This document shows, piece after piece, positions 4,876-25,183 of a stretch of 33,858 bases of DNA. How positions within the stretch are numbered: the first letter of the stretch is position 1; each line of letters opens with the position of its first letter. The position numbers and the translations under genes are program-made. The notes below the pieces were generated by a model, which saw only the letters and a program-made list of their open reading frames with translations, was not told where the DNA came from and ran no database searches. Origin of the DNA: a bacterium (GTDB lineage: Bacteria > Chloroflexota > Dormibacteria > Aeolococcales > Aeolococcaceae); contig JACWAJ010000022.1 of NCBI GenBank assembly GCA_014874355.1, forward strand, positions 1-33,858, given 5' to 3'.

Positions 4876-4934
4876 ATGCGATCCTCTGGCAATACGCTCT
4901 CAACGAGAAATCAATGTACTCGCCACAGGCGGAC

Positions 4935-4948
4935 ATTGGGCGCCCAAT
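4935..4948. promoter_or_regulatory. perfect 14-bp palindrome upstream of glgE, candidate operator
   Basis: ATTGGGC-GCCCAAT is a perfect palindrome in the 137-bp region between the divergent genes starting at 4875 (-) and 5013 (+). It sits 65 bp before the glgE GTG, a position suited to a dimeric repressor or activator. Which direction it controls cannot be told from sequence, and no matching regulator gene was identified. Confidence 0.4.
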
Positions 4949-5012
4949 CGCGACCCTGCTAGCCTTTCCCTCGATTGATGGTCCCTGGACAGTTCGGCAG
5001 CAAGGAGATGGC

Positions 5013-7007
<1,995 letters not shown>

Positions 7008-8666
7008 GTGCTTCCCAACAACGAAGATCCACTGTGGTTCAAACGTGCCGTCTTCTACGAGGTCTTGGTGCGTGCCTTCTGCGACAGCAATGCTGACGGG
7101 GTGGGCGACTTCCCGGGACTGATCAGCAAGCTCGACTACCTCGAATGGCTGGGGGTCGACTGCCTGTGGCTGCTTCCCTTCAACAAGAGTCCGCTGCGCG
7201 ACGGCGGCTACGACGTCGAGGACTACTACGCCGTGCTTCCCGAATACGGCACCGTCGACGACGTCCGCCAACTGGTGGATGCAGCCCACGCCCGCAACAT
7301 GCGCGTAGTCATGGACCTCGTCGTGAACCACACGTCGGACCAGCACAACTGGTTCCAACAGGCCAGGTCTTCACCCGACAGCCCCTACCGCGACTATTAC
7401 ATGTGGTCGAAGACCAAGGAAACCTACGCCGACGCACGAATCATCTTCATCGACTCGGAGGTTTCCAACTGGACGTGGGACGATCAGGCCGGGGCGTACT
7501 TCTGGCACCGCTTCTTCAGCCACCAGCCCGACCTCAACTACGACAACCCCAAAGTCCACGACGAGATGATCGACGTCATGCGCTTCTGGCTGGATCTCGG
7601 GATGGACGGCTTCCGCCTGGATGCGGTCCCCTACCTATACGCCCGCAACGGCACCAACTGCGAGAACCTTCCCGAAACCCATGCCTTCCTCGCCAAGCTG
7701 CGACAGACGGTGGATGCAGAGTACGGCCCTGGACGCATACTGCTCTCGGAGGCAAACCAGTGGCCGGAGGATGTCGTCGACTATTTCGGCACGCCGCAAG
7801 CGCCCGAGTGCCACATGAACTTCCACTTCCCGATCATGCCGCGCATGTTCATGGCACTGCGACGTGAGCAGCGTTATCCGATAACCGAGATTCTCGAGCG
7901 CACTCCACCCATCCCCGATGACAGTGCCTGGGGCATCTTCCTACGCAACCACGATGAGTTGACCCTGGAGATGGTCACCGACGAAGAGCGCGACTACATG
8001 TACCGTGAGTACGCCCATGACCCGCGCATGAAGGTGAACCTGGGCATCCGGCGCCGCCTCGCCCCATTGCTCGACAACGGCCGCCGTCGTACCGAGTTGT
8101 TCTGCTCAATGCTGTTTTCGCTGCCCGGAACACCGATCCTTTACTACGGTGACGAGATCGGCATGGGAGACAACATCTATCTGGGTGATCGCGACAGCGT
8201 TCGCACGCCGATGCAGTGGTCGATAGATCGCAACGCCGGCTTCAGCCAGGCCGACTTCGCGCGGCTCTACCTGCCCGTGCTGATGGATCCGGTCTACGGT
8301 TATCAGTCTGTCAATGTCGAAGGCCAGAAGCGCAACGAGTCCTCCTTACTGCAATGGATGCGCCGTTGCATCACCATGCGCAAACGCTGGCGCGCCTTCG
8401 GCGAGGGGAGCTTCGAGGTGCTCGACGCCACCAACCCCTCGATTTTCGCTTACCTTCGCGTATTCGAAGATGAAATCATCCTCTGCGTCAACAACTTCTC
8501 GCACTTTCCCCAACCCGTCGAGCTCGCCCTGCGCCGTTTCAGCGGCATGACGCCGGTGGAGATGGCAGGTGGAGTGCCATTCCCGGTCATCGGGGATCTC
8601 CCTTACCTCCTCACGCTTTCGTCGCATGGTTTCTTTTGGTTCCATCTTCAGGAGCTGCGCCCATGA
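7008..8666 (+). CDS. treS: trehalose synthase / maltose alpha-glucosyltransferase
   Basis: TreS interconverts trehalose and maltose and feeds maltose to the maltokinase encoded next. The 552-aa GH13 protein shows the nucleophile D205 ([10 protein letters not shown]), the acid/base E248 ([11 protein letters not shown]) and the transition-state Asp D316 (RNHDELTLE). The N-terminal [15 protein letters not shown] motif is typical of TreS. GTG 7008 directly follows the glgE TGA and has AAGGAA at 6995-7000. It is not fused to maltokinase as in many actinomycetes; the kinase is a separate gene overlapping by 4 nt. Confidence 0.95.
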
Positions 8667-10183
8667 CCACTGCCGCCGTCCACAGCGTCCTCCAACGTCA
8701 CGGCCTGGAGGGGGTCGTTCCCGCGCTACGCGACCACCTCGTACAGCAACGATGGTTCGGCGGCCGGGAACGCGGCGTGGACCGCATCGACATCGCAGAC
8801 ATAGCCGAGATGCACGACAAGGAACCCACGTGTCTCTGGCTCGGCATTAGAACTCACTACACCGATGGCGGCTCCGACCTGTACAGCGTCCTGGTGGGCA
8901 TTTGCAATGCCGACCACACCATGGCTCAGGTCGATGCCAGGTACCGAATCGCCACCCTTGAACACGATGGCCTAAAGCGGGTGGTCTACGACGCACTTGC
9001 CGACAACGACTGCTCCCTCCTGCTCTTCGAATTGATGTTGCGCGGTGAGCAACGCGCCACGTCTGCGGCGACGATCCGAGCGGAGGCAAACCCCAAGGTA
9101 TCCCCGGATCTCGACCCCACCGCAATCCGGCTCATCAGCGGTGAGCAGAGCAACACATCGCTCGCTCGCGGACAGAGTGAGTTCTTCAAGTGGGTGCGGC
9201 GAATCGAGCCCGGACCATCCATTGAAACGGAGATGCTCGACGCGCTACGTCAAGGCGACTTCGTCCATATGCCAGAGCAACTTGGCGGTATCGACTACAT
9301 CCGCAGCAATGTCCCCCCAACCCGTCTTGCCCACCTACAACGGTACGTGCACAACACCAGCGAGGGTTGGGCGCTGGCGCTGACGTCGCTGCGCGATCTC
9401 TACGCCTCCGCCGAGGCCTCTGGCGCTCGCACACTGCAGGAGCGGCTCGCTGCCGTCGCCTGTCAGGGTGGCAACTTCACCTCCGAAGCAATCCGGCTCG
9501 GCGAGGTCACGGCGGACATGCACGTGGCACTCGCATCCCCCACACTCACCGGTGCATCGACCCCTGTAGTCATCACCCCAGAGATGCTGGAAGGCTGGGC
9601 CGGCACGATGACCGCGGAACTGGACCGCCTTCTCGCATCGAGCAATCCCCAGATCCACCCGCTGCGTCCTCACCGCGACGCACTGACTCAGTGCTTTGAA
9701 GCGCTGCGTCACAGCGAGGAGGCCTGTGTGGCAACGCGAATCCATGGGGATTACCACCTGGGCCAGGTGCTGCGCACAGATGCCGGCTGGCTCGTGATCG
9801 ACTTCGAAGGTGAACCCGCACGCCCGCCGGCTGAGCGACGGTTGCGATGGTCGCCGCTGCGGGATGTGGCCGGCATGCTGCGTTCCTTCGATTACGCGGC
9901 TGCGGCTGCGCTCATGGAGCGCACCTCGCCGGCAGATCCAACCTGGCACGATCTCTTGGCCCAAGGCGATGCCTGGGCTAAAACCAATCGAGATGCTTTC
10001 TGGAACGCTTACATGGCAAGCATCGGCAATGCCGCACTGCCGTTTCCGAGCGCGAATTTCGCGTTGACCCTACGGCGTGCATTCGAGGTGCAGAAAGCGG
10101 TTTACGAGGTCACCTACGAACTGGGACACCGCCCTGATTGGGTCGGCATCCCGCTTGGTTTTTTGTTGGAGGTAGCGCAGTGA
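8663..10183 (+). CDS. mak: maltokinase (Pep2-type)
   Basis: Maltokinase phosphorylates maltose with ATP to give maltose-1-phosphate, the donor for GlgE. The 506-aa protein has the aminoglycoside-kinase-like C-lobe with the catalytic HGDYHLGQ motif (D363) and the metal-binding DFEGEP motif (D380, E382). The N-terminal region contains [10 protein letters not shown], typical of Pep2/Mak cap domains. The ATG at 8663 overlaps the treS TGA (ATGA) and follows AGGAG (8650-8654), so the longer upstream frame is not used. Its own TGA overlaps the glgB GTG. Confidence 0.94.
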
Positions 10184-12360
10184 AAGCCATACCTCAAGCC
10201 AGCTTCGAGGCTGACGTCTCGAGCCTACGCAACGGCACCCACCACTCGCCTCACTCGTTTCTCGGGCCCCACCCCGATGGCGACCTAACCATCGTCCGTG
10301 CCTACCATCCCGACGCGATCGCCGTCGAGATTGCCACCAAAGACGGCGTCTTTCCCGCTCGTCGCATCCATCCCGGTGGCCTCTTCGAGGCGCGAGTACC
10401 GGTGCGCGATCTGCCGGGTTACCGTCTGCGTTTCACCTCGCCGGCGCAGAAATGGGAGGCCGACGACCCCTATCGTTTCCTGCCCACACTTGGCGAACTG
10501 GATCTCCACCTCATCACCGAGGGCCGGCACCGCGAACTATGGCGGCGTCTGGGCGCTCGCATACTGGAACACCAGGGGGTGGTGGGAGTCGCCTTCGCTG
10601 TCTGGGCGCCCAACGCGAGTGGCGTTCATGTCGTTTCTGACGCAAACTTCTGGGACGACCGCACCCTGCCAATGCGTTCGCTGGGCGCATCAGGCGTGTG
10701 GGAGTTGTTCGTCCCCAACGCTCATCCCGGAACCAAGTACAAGTTCCGGGTGACCGGGGCGGGTGGACGTCAGAAGCTGAAGTCCGACCCTCTGGCGCGA
10801 TTCCAGGAGTCGTCACCGGCCCGAGCATCAATTGTCGAGGACAGCCATTACGCGTGGAGTGACGTCGACTGGCTGCAAGCACGAGCCACGGGCAATCCCG
10901 TCGAAAAGCCACTGTCCATCTACGAACTCCACCTGGGTTCCTGGCGGCGCGGTGACGGCGACCGAGTCCTTGGCTACCGCGACATCGCGGAGCAGCTGGT
11001 GACATCGTGCCGCGACATGGGCTTCACGCATGTGGAATTGATGCCCGTGGCCGAACACCCCTTCACGGCCTCGTGGGGCTACCAGGTCACCAACTACTAC
11101 GCACCCACATCTCGCTACGGCACGCCTGACGACTTCCGCTGGTTCGTCGACCATCTCCACCAGCACGGCATCGGTGTCATCGTCGATTGGGTGCCGGCCC
11201 ACTTCCCCCGCGACGATTGGGCGCTGGCCGGCTTCGACGGCACCGCACTCTACGAACACGCTGATCCGCGACGCGGTTCCCACCCGGACTGGGGCACGTT
11301 GATCTTCAACTACGGGCGCAACGAAGTGCGCAACTTCCTGGTGGCCAACGCGCGTTACTGGATGGACGAGTTCCATATCGACGGGCTGCGCGTCGATGCC
11401 GTAGCTTCCATGCTCTACCTCGACTACTCCCGCAAGGCAGGCGAGTGGGTGCCCAACATCTACGGCGGCCGCGAGAACCTTGAAGCCATCGCCTTCCTGC
11501 GTGAGTTCAACGAGATCGTCCATGCCGACTTTCCCGGCGCCATCACCATCGCAGAGGAATCGACCGATTGGCCTGGCGTCTCCCGACCAACCGTGAGCGG
11601 GGGACTCGGTTTCACGTTCAAGTGGAACATGGGCTGGATGCACGACACCCTTGACTACATGAGCAAGGACGCCGTATTCCGCCGCTACCATCACAACCAA
11701 CTAAGTTTCGGCCTGTGGTATGCATGGTCGGAGAACTTCGTGCTGCCGCTCTCGCACGACGAAGTCGTCCACAGCAAGGGTTCTCTCGTCGGCAAGATGA
11801 GCGGTGACATGTGGCAGAAGTTCGCCAACCTACGAGCCCTGCTCGGCTGGATGTGGGCTCACCCCGGCAAGAAACTCCTTTTCGCAGGCTGCGAGTTCGG
11901 CCAGATCGCAGAATGGTCGCACGACAACCCGCTTGACTGGCATCTTCTGGACGACGACCGCCATGCCGGTGTGCAACGGCTGGTGTGCGATATCGGAGCC
12001 CGTTATAGGGAAACCGCCGCGCTCTTCGAGCGCGACGCATCGCCTGCGGGGTTCCATTGGCTCGACGTCGGCAATGCCGACCAGAACGTCATCAGCTTCA
12101 CACGTTTTGACGCCCACGGTTACCCTGGCATCGTGTGCATCGCCAACTTCTCGCCGATCGTGCACACCAGCTTCCGCGTCGGGCTACCGCGGCCAGGCAC
12201 ATGGCGCGAGATTCTGAACACCGATGCCACACCGTATGGTGGGAGCGGTCAGGGCAACCTCGGTGCCGTCACGACCGAGCCCGTACCCTGGCATGGTTGC
12301 GGAGATTCGGCGTTGATGACACTGCCGCCACTGGCAACACTCTGGCTCAGCCCGGAATGA
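10180..12360 (+). CDS. glgB: 1,4-alpha-glucan branching enzyme
   Basis: GlgB makes alpha-1,6 branches in the glucan that GlgE lengthens. The 726-aa protein has an N-terminal domain (about 1-105), a CBM48 domain (about 105-215) and a GH13 barrel with nucleophile D406 (GLRVDAVASMLYLDYSR), acid/base E459 (TIAEESTDWP) and LSHDEVVHSKGS. These positions match the E. coli enzyme within one residue from memory. GTG 10180 overlaps the mak TGA and has GGAGG at 10168-10172, seven bases away. It is the last gene of the GlgE operon. Confidence 0.96.
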   Translation: MKAIPQASFEADVSSLRNGTHHSPHSFLGPHPDGDLTIVRAYHPDAIAVEIATKDGVFPARRIHPGGLFEARVPVRDLPGYRLRFTSPAQKWEADDPYRFLPTLGELDLHLITEGRHRELWRRLGARILEHQGVVGVAFAVWAPNASGVHVVSDANFWDDRTLPMRSLGASGVWELFVPNAHPGTKYKFRVTGAGGRQKLKSDPLARFQESSPARASIVEDSHYAWSDVDWLQARATGNPVEKPLSIYELHLGSWRRGDGDRVLGYRDIAEQLVTSCRDMGFTHVELMPVAEHPFTASWGYQVTNYYAPTSRYGTPDDFRWFVDHLHQHGIGVIVDWVPAHFPRDDWALAGFDGTALYEHADPRRGSHPDWGTLIFNYGRNEVRNFLVANARYWMDEFHIDGLRVDAVASMLYLDYSRKAGEWVPNIYGGRENLEAIAFLREFNEIVHADFPGAITIAEESTDWPGVSRPTVSGGLGFTFKWNMGWMHDTLDYMSKDAVFRRYHHNQLSFGLWYAWSENFVLPLSHDEVVHSKGSLVGKMSGDMWQKFANLRALLGWMWAHPGKKLLFAGCEFGQIAEWSHDNPLDWHLLDDDRHAGVQRLVCDIGARYRETAALFERDASPAGFHWLDVGNADQNVISFTRFDAHGYPGIVCIANFSPIVHTSFRVGLPRPGTWREILNTDATPYGGSGQGNLGAVTTEPVPWHGCGDSALMTLPPLATLWLSPE

Positions 12361-20567: not shown

Positions 20568-21188
20568 TCAAGCCCAGACGAACAGTTCCGCCTCCACGGG
20601 AAGCAGGATCGTGTTGTCGAAGGTCGTCGAGTCTTGTAATGCCGTGATGCAGTGTTCTAGGACATGCCGGCGCTGCACTTCGGAAAGGCCGGTGTCGAGG
20701 TTGCGCTCGCCAATGAGCGCGGCGTAGAACTGCCGGGCCGAGTCGAAACGCGCGATGTCAAAGACGGGGGTCACGGTGCAGCCCGCCGGAACCGGTGCTA
20801 CCGGCGTCAACCCGAGGTCGGGCACTGACGTACCGACAGTTTCGAGTGCCGCCGCCGCAATGGCCTCGTGGACCGCCGCGGCGGTGAAGTGGACGGCGGC
20901 GACAACGCCACCTTTCGTGATTGCCCGCATTGCCGCAAGCGTGTCCGCCGGTGCCGCCTCGATGCCGAGTGTGCCAACTGCTACGGCCAACTCCGAAGAA
21001 CCTGGATCGGTTTTTGCCGTCACCGTCACACCGCGACCGAGTAGTTCTCCAGTCAGGACGCCACAATCCCCGTCCACCACGTAGACACAACGACCGCTGA
21101 CGTTACCCAGCGCGATCACAAGTTGCTCGGCAAAAGGCGCCAGCACGCGGTTTGCATAGGTAAGTCCGTAACCGGTCATTCCGATCAT
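20568..21188 (-). CDS. eroded SAM-methyltransferase-like protein in biotin-enzyme operon
   Basis: This 206-aa protein has the overall order of a class I methyltransferase: YANRVLAPFAEQLVIAL, then the glycine loop position VVDGDCGVLTGELLG, then MRAITKGGVVAAVHF as in the post-motif of UbiE-like enzymes. The SAM-binding motif (normally DxGxGxG) is changed to VDGDCGVLTG. The middle of the fold is short by several tens of residues. SAM binding is therefore doubtful. ATG 21188 overlaps the TGA of the biotin carboxylase gene. The frame is open upstream, inside that gene, but the overlap start is preferred. Role unknown. Confidence 0.55.
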   Translation of the reverse strand: MIGMTGYGLTYANRVLAPFAEQLVIALGNVSGRCVYVVDGDCGVLTGELLGRGVTVTAKTDPGSSELAVAVGTLGIEAAPADTLAAMRAITKGGVVAAVHFTAAAVHEAIAAAALETVGTSVPDLGLTPVAPVPAGCTVTPVFDIARFDSARQFYAALIGERNLDTGLSEVQRRHVLEHCITALQDSTTFDNTILLPVEAELFVWA

Positions 21189-22630
21189 CCGGTAGCCGTC
21201 ACGATCGCGGCCGCGATGGCGGCAGCGCGAGCGGGGTCTCGCAGCAAGCGCAGAAACGGTTTCTGGCGCTCCGCCCAAATATCCGCCACCGCAACGAGTT
21301 GTGGCCGCTCATCAATGAAGCGGGTCGTGTAGTTGCCATCAGCAAAGCCGGGATCGTCGAGAATCGCCAGGTGGTAGGCGATGTTGGTACGGATTCCTGT
21401 GATGACAAACTCGAGCAGCGCCCGCCGGCCACGGGCAATCGCCTGCCGGCGATCCTCCCCAAAGACGACAAGTTTGGCAACCATCGAGTCGTAGTGCGGA
21501 GATACCGTTCCGGGACTAAAGAGCGACGAATCGATCCGCACACCCGGGCCTGACGGCTCGTGGTATCCGGTCACCTGGCCGGGCGATGGCAGGAACCCCT
21601 TTTGGTAGTTCTCAGCGTTGATGCGGAATTCGATGGCATGCCCCCGCTGCACGATATCGTCCTGCGAAAACCGGAGCTTCTCCCCGGTGGCCACCCGGAT
21701 CTGCTCGACGACCAGGTCTATACCTGTAACCCATTCGGTTATGGGATGCTCGACTTGGAGGCGAGTGTTCATCTCGAGGAAGAAGAACTCGCCATGCGAG
21801 TAGATGAACTCGACGGTGCCAGCGTTGACGTAGCCGGCAGCCCGCGCCGCCCGGACCGCAGTCTCACCCATGCGGCGCCTCGTCGCTGCGTCGATGATCG
21901 GTGATGGCGACTCTTCGATGATTTTCTGGTGCCGGCGCTGGATGCTGCATTCACGTTCGCCCAAATGGACGACGTTCCCATGAGCGTCGGCAAGGATCTG
22001 GATTTCGATATGCCGAGGATCCTCGATATAGCGTTCCAAATAGATCGTCTCGTTGCCAAAAGCGCGCTTCGCAGTACTGCGCGCGGTCTCGATACCACTG
22101 CGAAACTCGGCCTCGTCGCGGGCCAAGCGCATGCCAATCCCACCGCCGCCGGCGGACGCCTTGATGAGCACGGGGTAACCCAGCGCAGCAGCGGCGGCCA
22201 CCGCTTGGTCGATGTCGTCCAGTGCGTCCGTGCCCGGAACCACCGGGACACCCGACTCCCGCATCCGCTGTCGCGCCGACAGTTTCTCGCCCATCATCGC
22301 CATCGCCTCGGGCGGAGGACCGATGAACACAATGTCGCGCTCGGCACAGGCACGCGCCAGTGCTTGATTCTCACTCAAGAATCCGTAGCCAGGATGGATG
22401 GCCTCCGCTCCCTGCGCCACCGCGACATCGAGGATCCGGTCGACAACCAGATAGGACTGCGACGGAGACGCGGGGCCGATTTCCACCGCCTCATCTGCAA
22501 GGGCTACAAACGCAGCTCCACGATCAACATCGCTGTGAACCGCCACAGTGGAGATGCCCATGTCGCGGCAGGCACGGATGATCCGCACCGCAATCTCGCC
22601 ACGATTGGCTACAAGCACCTTACTGAACAT
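21185..22630 (-). CDS. accC: biotin carboxylase subunit
   Basis: This subunit carboxylates the biotin on a carrier domain using ATP and bicarbonate. The 481-aa protein starts with FSKVLVANRGEIAVRIIRA (2-20). It has the ATP-grasp Gly-loop KASAGGGGIGMR (157-168), HIEIQILAD (207-215), GERECSIQRRHQKIIEE (224-240) and EMNTRLQVEHP (286-296), with all expected residues present. It is co-transcribed downstream of the carboxyltransferase/carrier gene (12-bp gap). The ATG has a weak AAGGG upstream. It could belong to an acetyl-, propionyl- or pyruvate-type enzyme; the neighbour points to a pyruvate carboxylase/oxaloacetate decarboxylase-type partner. The symbol accC is by family only. Confidence 0.93.
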   Translation of the reverse strand: MFSKVLVANRGEIAVRIIRACRDMGISTVAVHSDVDRGAAFVALADEAVEIGPASPSQSYLVVDRILDVAVAQGAEAIHPGYGFLSENQALARACAERDIVFIGPPPEAMAMMGEKLSARQRMRESGVPVVPGTDALDDIDQAVAAAAALGYPVLIKASAGGGGIGMRLARDEAEFRSGIETARSTAKRAFGNETIYLERYIEDPRHIEIQILADAHGNVVHLGERECSIQRRHQKIIEESPSPIIDAATRRRMGETAVRAARAAGYVNAGTVEFIYSHGEFFFLEMNTRLQVEHPITEWVTGIDLVVEQIRVATGEKLRFSQDDIVQRGHAIEFRINAENYQKGFLPSPGQVTGYHEPSGPGVRIDSSLFSPGTVSPHYDSMVAKLVVFGEDRRQAIARGRRALLEFVITGIRTNIAYHLAILDDPGFADGNYTTRFIDERPQLVAVADIWAERQKPFLRLLRDPARAAAIAAAIVTATG

Positions 22631-22642
22631 TGCTTCGCGCCC

Positions 22643-24439
22643 TTAGTCTATGTGGACAACCGGATCGCGCGGACTGACCACGGCACCCACTTCGACATAG
22701 ACATGCGACACCGTGCCCGCCTTGGTCGCGGTGATGTCGTTCTGCATCTTCATTGCCTCGAGGACGGCCACCACCTGGCCAAGTTCAACATTATCGCCAA
22801 CTTCGACCATAACCTTGAGTATGAGACCCTGCATCGGCGCCACCACGGTTCCCTCGCGGACCCTGTGCGTGTCTGAGGCGACTGCAGGAATGGCGGCGGT
22901 GGGATCTCCCGAGAGAGATCCCACTGCCGCTATGACACGAACGCTGTAGGACTGGCCGTCGACTTCAACTGTCAGATCGCGAGCCTCCGAGAGCGCAGCG
23001 GATTGCGAACCACTTGGCTCGCTTCCCAAGACAGGCTCGCTCGGAGTTTCATCCGCAGCCGGAAGCGTTCTGGCGACCGGTTCGTCCCCGAGGACCTCGA
23101 CGTCCGTCTCACCCCGGGCCAGCGCCAGCCACTCGCCCCCGAACAGTGCGTAACTCACGACTGCCGCATCGTCCGCTCCGAGAGCCTCGCGTTCCAGTTC
23201 GGCACGAGCAGCCTCAATCTGAGGATCGATCAAATCGGCAGGCCTGAGCGTGATCGGCTCCTCCCTGCCGTTGACACTGCGCAATACTCCAGCATCACTC
23301 GCAGTGGGTGGCCGGCCGTAGCGGCCAAGGCAGTAGTCCTTGACCTCATGGCTCAGTGTCGCGTAGCGGTCACCGTCGCACACGTTGTAGACCGCCTGTG
23401 TGGCGATTATTTCGGTGAGCGGCGTGATCAGCGGCGGATAACCCAGTTCAGCGCGAACGCGAGCCACCTCCTGCTCGACTTCCGAGATTCGCTCCACCGA
23501 GTCACGCTCACGCAGTTCGGTCAGGGCATGGCCCATGGCCGATGGCGGCAACAGCCCGCGCAGCGCCGACGTATCCAGCCGCATTGCCGTGGGGTCGACG
23601 ATGTCACCGTAATGCTGGAGAGCATCCTCCAACATGAGCGACGCCGTCACGATCGAGTCCAGGGCGAGACCGGTGTCGAACAGAGTCTCGCGGAGTGCCG
23701 TCACCACCGCCTCCGCAGCAGGGAAGGAAGCGCCACCGGCAAGTGGTGCAAGCGCAACATCCAGACGTGTCACACCGGCTTCAACTGCGGCCAGATAGGC
23801 GAAGTCGGCTTGGCCGGACTGCGCCGTGAAGGAAACCGCGAGCGGGAGTGACGTCGCGTCACGAATGCCGCGCGCCAATTCCGTGGCTCGCGCCACGCCG
23901 AGCACACCAAGCGGGTCGTGGAGACACAACGAGTCGTAACCGCGATCCGCAAGCGCTCGTGCCATCTCGATGACACGAGCTGACGCTTCTCCACCCGCGG
24001 TACTGAAAACAATGACACCCTCTGCATGCCGGGCCGTAGCGTGCACCGCGGTGAGACAGCGTTCCAGGTTGCGGATGTCATTGAGCGGGTCGTAGCAGCG
24101 GAAGATGTCAACCCCGGCATTGGCGGCCACACGCACAAAGACGTCGACGACATCATCGGCGACATGACGGTGGCCGACGAGAGCCTGGCCTCCGATGGTG
24201 GCCAGCAATGCCGTCGACTGAGCCACTTCGCGAATGGCGCGCAGGCGCTCAAAAGGGTTCTCCCCGAGGAAACGAAGTTGCGCTTCGAAGGTTGTGCCCC
24301 CGAAGACTTCGAGCGCGGCAAAGCCGCACGAGTCGAGGCGTTCGGCGACGGCAACGGCATGGCGCTGCCGCATCCGGCTCACCAACAACGCCTGCTGACC
24401 GGACCGCAGTGAGGTTTCCACAAGTTCGACGCCTGGCAT
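22643..24439 (-). CDS. carboxyltransferase/biotin carrier fusion with lost metal site
   Basis: This 598-aa protein is built like oxaloacetate decarboxylase alpha or pyruvate carboxylase subunit B. It has a carboxyltransferase barrel (about 1-290), a helical conserved domain (about 300-400, with LGYPPLITP and VKDYCLGRYGRPP), a linker rich in Glu, Pro and Ser, and a biotin carrier domain with EAMKMQN (K564, 34 residues from the end). In the barrel, the Asp of LRDGQQ is Ser13, the carbamylated Lys is His174 (LCLHDPLG), and the two metal-binding His of HTH are Ser203 and Thr205 (SFT). The substrate loop that normally reads IPGG is LPPS. The metal-dependent reaction should therefore be lost, although the carrier looks functional. 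ATG 24439 has a TAGAAT -10 eight bases upstream. Confidence 0.88.
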   Translation of the reverse strand: MPGVELVETSLRSGQQALLVSRMRQRHAVAVAERLDSCGFAALEVFGGTTFEAQLRFLGENPFERLRAIREVAQSTALLATIGGQALVGHRHVADDVVDVFVRVAANAGVDIFRCYDPLNDIRNLERCLTAVHATARHAEGVIVFSTAGGEASARVIEMARALADRGYDSLCLHDPLGVLGVARATELARGIRDATSLPLAVSFTAQSGQADFAYLAAVEAGVTRLDVALAPLAGGASFPAAEAVVTALRETLFDTGLALDSIVTASLMLEDALQHYGDIVDPTAMRLDTSALRGLLPPSAMGHALTELRERDSVERISEVEQEVARVRAELGYPPLITPLTEIIATQAVYNVCDGDRYATLSHEVKDYCLGRYGRPPTASDAGVLRSVNGREEPITLRPADLIDPQIEAARAELEREALGADDAAVVSYALFGGEWLALARGETDVEVLGDEPVARTLPAADETPSEPVLGSEPSGSQSAALSEARDLTVEVDGQSYSVRVIAAVGSLSGDPTAAIPAVASDTHRVREGTVVAPMQGLILKVMVEVGDNVELGQVVAVLEAMKMQNDITATKAGTVSHVYVEVGAVVSPRDPVVHID

Positions 24440-24501: not shown

Positions 24502-24530
24502 TTGACAACCGTGTATGCACGCACCATGCT
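24502..24530 (+). promoter_or_regulatory. candidate promoter of histone-like gene
   Basis: TTGACA (24502-24507) matches the -35 consensus. CATGCT (24525-24530) follows after 17 bp as a poor -10. The region lies about 100 bp upstream of the histone-like gene. Confidence 0.35.
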
Positions 24531-24631
24531 ATGCGCGTCCCGACAGTATCGGTGTGTTTTCACAACGTCCTGTCAGAAACACACAGAAGCGACGGCTTTA
24601 CAAGGACCGTCGCACAGGAGGCGCGTACGAT

Positions 24632-25183
24632 ATGCCCAGGACCAGCCGGAGAAGTGGCGGTCTCGACAAAGCCGTCAAGCGAACCGTCAAGCGAACCGTC
24701 AAGCGTGCATCGGCGTCGACATCGCGTCATGCCAGTACCAGTGGCGGCGAACTCTTGAAGGCCGTACACAGCCTCGTGCAAGCGCTGCCTGTCGCCGAAC
24801 TTGAGAAGCGTCTCAGCGGACTCGAGAAGGCCGTGGCCAAGTTGGAGTCGGACCTTCGTTCCGCCGCACACAAGGTTGGCCTAGCCGTCGCCAAGCGCAG
24901 TGCTACCAGAAAACCAGCAGCAGCCAAGCGCACGCCCGCGAAGCGCGCCACGGCCAAGCGTGCTACCGCCAAGCGTGCACCTGTGAAGCGCACAACCGTC
25001 AAGCGTGCCCCCGCAAAGCGTGCTCCCGCCAAGCGTGCACCTGTGAAGCGCACAACCGTCAAGCGCGCCACTGTCAAACGAGTTGCCGTCAAGCGTGCAC
25101 CCATCAAGCGCGTCGTGTCGCGTCGCGGGCGTCCGCGGAAGACCGCGCCCGTCAACGCAACGCCAATCTCGATTACAGGCTGA
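24632..25183 (+). CDS. histone H1-like Lys/Arg-repeat DNA-binding protein with AT-hook
   Basis: This 183-aa, very basic protein likely coats or compacts DNA. After a basic start (RTVKRTVKR) comes a short coiled-coil-like segment (about 55-82, VAELEKRLSGLEKAVAKLES). The C-terminal half is a five-residue repeat ending in KR (about 13 copies, residues 97-160, such as APAKR, TTVKR, ATAKR). An AT-hook, RGRPRK (165-170), follows. ATG 24632 is ten bases from AGGAGG (24616-24621). The DNA carries a 12-bp tandem repeat at 24674 and a 40-bp repeat (24966-25005 and 25026-25065), so the copy number could vary. It resembles actinobacterial and AlgP-type histone-like proteins in composition only. Confidence 0.82.
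   Translation: MPRTSRRSGGLDKAVKRTVKRTVKRASASTSRHASTSGGELLKAVHSLVQALPVAELEKRLSGLEKAVAKLESDLRSAAHKVGLAVAKRSATRKPAAAKRTPAKRATAKRATAKRAPVKRTTVKRAPAKRAPAKRAPVKRTTVKRATVKRVAVKRAPIKRVVSRRGRPRKTAPVNATPISITG

Follow-up and report, generated by a model that had tools for sequence, protein, structure and literature searches.

Gene content around the PycB-like locus

The window analysed here, a stretch of 33,858 nucleotides, comes from a bacterium that belongs with Candidatus Dormibacterota, a lineage of uncultured soil bacteria. Its genome (G000; 1.45 Mb, 98.8% estimated completeness) was compared with a set of 61 related genomes of 1.4–4.4 Mb, nearly all of them larger than G000, which is, within its family, a streamlined or fast-evolving genome. 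Families are labelled f1 (that of the window), f2 (the sister of f1), f3 and f4; genera are labelled g12–g16, and G and L numbers denote genomes and loci.

The gene under study, P0001, occupies positions 22643–24439 of the window, as originally predicted, and is read from the minus strand. The intact frame encodes a PycB/OadA-like protein of 598 aa plus stop, with Pfam matches to HMGL-like (residues 4–267), PYC_OADA (309–442) and Biotin_lipoyl (531–597). The carboxyl-transfer (CT) barrel, delimited by Pfam, alignment and a structural model, covers residues about 4–290 (23570–24430, minus strand); the PYC_OADA domain lies at 23114–23515 and the biotinyl domain at 22649–22849, both on the minus strand. 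The biotinyl domain carries the EAMKM attachment site expected of an AccB-like carrier, and within it the lysine that had been predicted to be intact, K564 (codon 22748–22750), is in place. The order CT, PYC_OADA, biotinyl, together with an adjoining biotin carboxylase (BC) gene, is that of a PycB beta subunit.

The BC gene (21185–22630, minus strand; 481 aa) is found 12 bases downstream of P0001 and is the sole PF02785 match in G000; its catalytic motif EMNTRLQVEHP was kept, in agreement with the prediction of an intact partner enzyme. The Ala-rich C-terminus of this BC (21194–21247, minus strand) resembles the helix with which PycA docks into the beta subunit, and may function likewise. The related genomes mostly have a single BC, adjoining the P0001 homologue. 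In genus g12 the PycB-like and BC genes are separated by other genes spanning about 4 kb; at one such locus (L042, 7278–11126) the insert holds one L,D-transpeptidase-like gene and several membrane-protein-like ones.

The third gene (20568–21278, minus strand; the true start is probably inside the listed frame) is a divergent methyltransferase-like ORF. No Pfam match was obtained for the window copy or for the homologue at L038, so the window copy would be degenerate or fast-evolving; homologues at L031, L034 and L036 are recognisable methyltransferases (PF13649). On the plus strand the window encodes a BirA-type biotin protein ligase (564–1334; BPL_LplA_LipB and BPL_C domains), the enzyme needed for biotinylation. 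Also on the plus strand are a GlgE-type alpha-glucan/trehalose cluster (4914–12360; GlgE-like, amylase-family [trehalose synthase-like], maltokinase-like and branching-enzyme-like proteins) and, divergent from P0001, a gene (24515–25183) for a Lys/Ala/Arg-rich basic repeat protein (KRAxAKR...) of histone-H1-like composition; genes resembling the latter were also seen near L079 and L070.

Replacement of the metal site

When P0001 was searched against solved structures with phmmer, the best match was the PycB chain 5ks8_C (E 9e-99), followed by OadA 2nx9_A (E 4e-79) and transcarboxylase 5S 1rqb (E 1e-67). In these alignments all four metal ligands (Asp, carbamylated Lys, His and His) are replaced, as the original prediction had claimed: Ser13 stands for the Asp (24401–24403), His174 for the carbamylated Lys (23918–23920), and Ser203-Phe-Thr205 for the HxH pair (23825–23833; all minus strand). 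Accordingly LRDG or LRDA reads LRSG, IKD or LKD reads LHD, and HAHATSG or HCHSTAG reads SFTAQSG. The claim that the surroundings align without gaps was borne out for PycB and OadA, which are gap-free from residue 6 past the metal site; the 5S alignment has a 2-residue shift ahead of the His pair and is otherwise gapless near the site. The substrate loop is changed as well, again as first noted, from PGG to Pro298-Pro299-Ser300 (23540–23548, minus strand). Two losses were found beyond those first noted, the biotin-pocket Ala being replaced by Thr49 (24293–24295) and the substrate-binding Arg by Gly83 (24191–24193; both minus strand). P0001 therefore lacks the metal ligands, the biotin-pocket Ala, the pyruvate Arg and the PGG loop by which a PycB subunit is recognised. 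The A49T change in the pyruvate carboxylase (PC) of Methylobacillus flagellatus leaves 1% activity and equals the human PC disease mutation A610T (PMC5059739).

An AlphaFold2 model of P0001 (56 input sequences; pLDDT 88.8 on average and about 95 in the CT domain) superposed on 2nx9_A at 1.6 Å over 451 columns (TM-score 0.95 by target). By alignment and by this superposition, no other residues appear to take over the metal site, and the loss of the ligands stood after comparison with OadA, 5S and PycB and after structure prediction. An oxaloacetate decarboxylase alpha subunit or a transcarboxylase 5S with unusual metal chemistry is a very improbable identity: the NCBIfam oadA and 5S models do match P0001, but at scores far under their curated cut-offs (oadA, 438 bits where 756.5 is required; 5S, 292 where 827 is required), and P0001 lacks the metal ligands that both families have. 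A search for OadB (PF03977) gave no match in the 61 genomes, and an OadA sodium pump was rejected on this ground.

A match to P0001, mostly full length, was found in 58 of the 61 related genomes, and homologues with altered metal positions, as the original prediction had proposed to look for, were common: three of the ligands (Asp, Lys and second His) are missing from 35 aligned sequences of f1 and f2, and the fourth, the first His, is retained in f2 and in two f1 genera. Family f4, archaeal and Dehalococcoidia sequences keep the D/K/H/H set, and all four positions are invariant in 39 canonical relatives. Since those 39 all have the Asp and the second His and 35/35 aligned clade members lack both, the loss is more than chance. 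In a quick tree computed without the ligand columns, some of whose branches (L070 and L079/L064 in particular) are weak and long, a single change accounts for where the Asp is present, and likewise for the second His; the residue itself changes at least 8, 9, 4 and 7 times at the four ligand positions. By these alignments and this tree the metal-site loss is old, dating to an ancestor of two Dormibacterota families.

What now stands at the four positions varies within the clade (H/Q/Y/A/S/L, H/F/Y/Q/R, S/H/R and A/S/C/T/V), with entropy percentiles of 0.77, 0.73, 0.52 and 0.71 (32 clade members, positions 4–439). Arg83 is missing in over half of the clade; Thr at position 49 is peculiar to P0001, most clade members having Ala or Ser; and the loop at 298–302 is clade-specific. 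Residues R12, Q16, Q85, R114, D117, N120 and D175 are invariant in the clade, and R12 and Q16 are substrate contacts in canonical enzymes. For the CT domain, Nei-Gojobori omega was 0.03–0.16 (14 close clade pairs) vs 0.01–0.03 for canonical pairs, with 0.14–0.71 for the linker; being low but above the canonical values, it indicates that the barrel is selected, more loosely than before. At the metal positions the replacements drift freely; the CT domain as a whole remains under purifying selection.

These data bear on two alternatives. A decaying pseudogene in a reduced genome, which the divergent third gene and the long P0001 branch might suggest, is hardly credible, given intact frames in dozens of independent MAGs, homologues without stops, and omega values far under 1 in every domain of clade members. 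The possibility that homologues kept the ligands and P0001 alone was decaying, which could have undone the original prediction, was thus contradicted by the clade-wide loss and by dN/dS. The second alternative is that the CT domain is still catalytic, as a metal-independent or other-substrate carboxyltransferase or as a lyase-like barrel. Purifying selection on the barrel and the seven invariant residues speak for it, but the four positions hold no conserved new residue, and so no new shared catalytic group there, while Arg83 is lost in over half of the clade and P0001 has Thr49; we regard continued catalysis as quite improbable.

A separate group of eight PycB-like sequences (L094, L096, L097, L101, L103, L105, L106 and L107), probably family f3, keeps the Asp and both His and has Glu for Lys at the carbamylated position (GIEDVAG). 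It has Trp for the biotin-pocket Ala in 7/8 members and PAP or PTP for PGG, and branches separately from the clade of the window. The group may have lost or changed its function independently. PEP carboxylase was found in 6/6 f3 genomes searched. As a clean substitute for lost PC this enzyme was rejected, its distribution being patchy (33/61 genomes, and absent in G000).

Biotin carriers and carboxyltransferase partners

In G000 the genes for AccD and AccA lie behind a FabH-like gene (L213). The genome further encodes a PccB/MmdA-type subunit adjoining methylmalonyl-CoA mutase (L139) and a second PccB-type subunit adjoining an HMGL-like gene (L140); assignment of the PccB-type subunits to propionyl-CoA and methylcrotonyl-CoA rests on these neighbour genes. 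None of the three loci has its own BC, so that there are acyl-CoA carboxyltransferase subunits without another BC, the setting expected for an AccB-like role of P0001. In canonical f4 relatives BC is already single, and BC sharing may therefore predate the loss of the CT site.

Carrier classes were read from exact translation of Pfam matches. G000 has two biotin carriers, P0001 and a much smaller protein (about 70 aa, motif ESMKM) encoded beside enoyl-CoA hydratase; the third Biotin_lipoyl match is a lipoyl domain. Many f1 relatives also carry the small protein. In 11 MAGs from four genera (g13–g16) and two families, the P0001 homologue has the sole biotinyl domain found (G012, G013, G018, G032, G033, G035, G037, G038, G039, G040 and G044); the other Biotin_lipoyl matches in these MAGs have lipoyl motifs (TDK, SDK, TEK) or belong to a GcvH-like protein in G033. 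The related MAGs are 84–93% complete, and an AccB could be missed in any one of them, but eleven agree. All 11 are in the ligand-less clade by matching genomes to loci by coordinates, with G037 placed by the Asp position only, read with a class-wide LRxGQQ DNA pattern that is noisy and was put to no other use. AccA was present in 10/10 of the eleven that were tested, and each of those ten had four Carboxyl_trans matches. DNA matches to the motif ExMKM were considered as further biotin carriers and rejected, those translated having fallen outside any biotinyl domain.

The P0001 module could instead serve one partner, for instance acetyl-CoA carboxylase, with the small ESMKM carrier serving the PccB-type subunits from the same BC. 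The small carrier gene does adjoin a PccB-type gene in G014, G009, G030 and G057; in G000, however, the two are about 26 kb apart on the same contig, and the eleven MAGs without the small carrier nevertheless have several Carboxyl_trans genes. We consider this division of labour unlikely.

A proposed role as biotin carrier and BC scaffold

The single BC has to supply all the biotin-dependent carboxylases that operate in these cells, and the sole biotin arm that can be seen in eleven genomes is borne by a dead PycB; both point to a carrier and scaffold. We think it probable, short of confident, that P0001 is a former subunit of a two-subunit PC that is now part of a BC-carrier module for acyl-CoA carboxylases, with its dead CT domain as scaffold. 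In the ancestor, P0001 would have been the beta subunit (CT plus BCCP) of that enzyme, and the CT site would have died in the ancestor of the two Dormibacterota families. BC would carboxylate biotin on K564, presumably biotinylated, and AccA/AccD and the two PccB-type subunits may then accept the carboxyl group in trans. The barrel of the CT domain would stay as a dimerising scaffold, holding BC and the biotin arm by a putative docking, and P0001 would be retained because its arm and the neighbouring BC are the carboxybiotin source of the lineage. The same carrier role would apply in G000 despite the small second carrier. In the M. flagellatus enzyme (MfPC) the alpha subunit by itself is monomeric, and for Staphylococcus aureus PC the BC domain in isolation is inactive (PMC5059739); from this, a beta-type scaffold may be needed for BC.

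Several points count against the carrier and scaffold reading: the small ESMKM carrier could serve the acyl-CoA carboxyltransferases in G000 and in many f1 relatives, the incomplete MAGs may each hide an AccB, and R12 and Q16 are invariant, which plain scaffolding does not require. The last of these raises the alternative that the dead CT pocket is a sensor, in which a metabolite (2-oxo acid, acyl-CoA or biotin) gates BC or the carrier arm. The homologous single-chain pyruvate carboxylases are allosteric enzymes, and the clade-specific loop at 298–302 would fit a sensor, as would the retained R12 and Q16; the retained residues may however be structural. We judge the sensor to be a minor possibility as the primary explanation, and it is compatible with, not exclusive of, the carrier reading.

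The original prediction had left two branches, a different chemistry or substrate, and a scaffold for the carrier. The second gained support from the single BC, the sole carrier in eleven MAGs, the drift at the metal positions and the purifying selection. The first found little, there being no new conserved residue, and Thr49 and Gly83 in P0001; the invariance of R12, Q16 and the others leaves it a small probability. The wider proposal is that fatty-acid synthesis in this lineage draws its carboxybiotin from a dead PC subunit, which would act both as scaffold for BC and as the general biotin carrier, and whose dead pocket may sense a metabolite; in our view it has an even chance of being correct.

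Comparison with known systems and implications

The closest known system is PycA/PycB of M. flagellatus (PDB 5ks8, PMC5059739), which shares with the locus the domain order, the split of the BC gene from the CT plus BCCP gene, the best sequence and fold match, and the Ala-rich BC C-terminus. It differs in that P0001 is without the metal ligands, PGG loop, biotin-pocket Ala and substrate Arg, and in that no HGE motif, as found in the BT-like domain, was recognised in P0001, whose linker is low-confidence in the model. The proposed BC and carrier would supply AccA/AccD in trans like AccB/AccC of multisubunit acetyl-CoA carboxylase; the carrier here, however, has 598 aa and includes a dead CT barrel of the pyruvate type, and no AccB-type protein was found in the eleven MAGs. 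Actinobacterial acyl-CoA carboxylases (AccA3-type) have BC and BCCP fused on one chain as a shared subunit with no CT relic. One biotinylated module for several carboxyltransferases is likewise proposed here; in contrast, the BC of P0001 is separate and the BCCP is attached to a CT relic. The acetyl-CoA carboxylase of Chloroflexus aurantiacus, in a neighbouring phylum, also has a rearranged carrier, a fused BC-BCCP, but no pyruvate-type CT domain is involved (PMC11077971). No prior report of a dead-CT carrier in Dormibacterota was found in the open-access literature. Shared BC/BCCP modules and dead enzyme domains are each already known; their combination in P0001 is new.

General family models label genes of the P0001 type pyruvate carboxylase subunit B, and with this label metabolic models would credit an anaplerotic CO2 fixation that these bacteria very probably lack. 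If the carrier reading is true, a metabolic enzyme lost its chemistry and lived on as a scaffold, close relatives with an intact active site would let the states before and after the loss be compared in nature, and the way in which a single biotin carboxylase supplies several carboxyltransferases would become testable.
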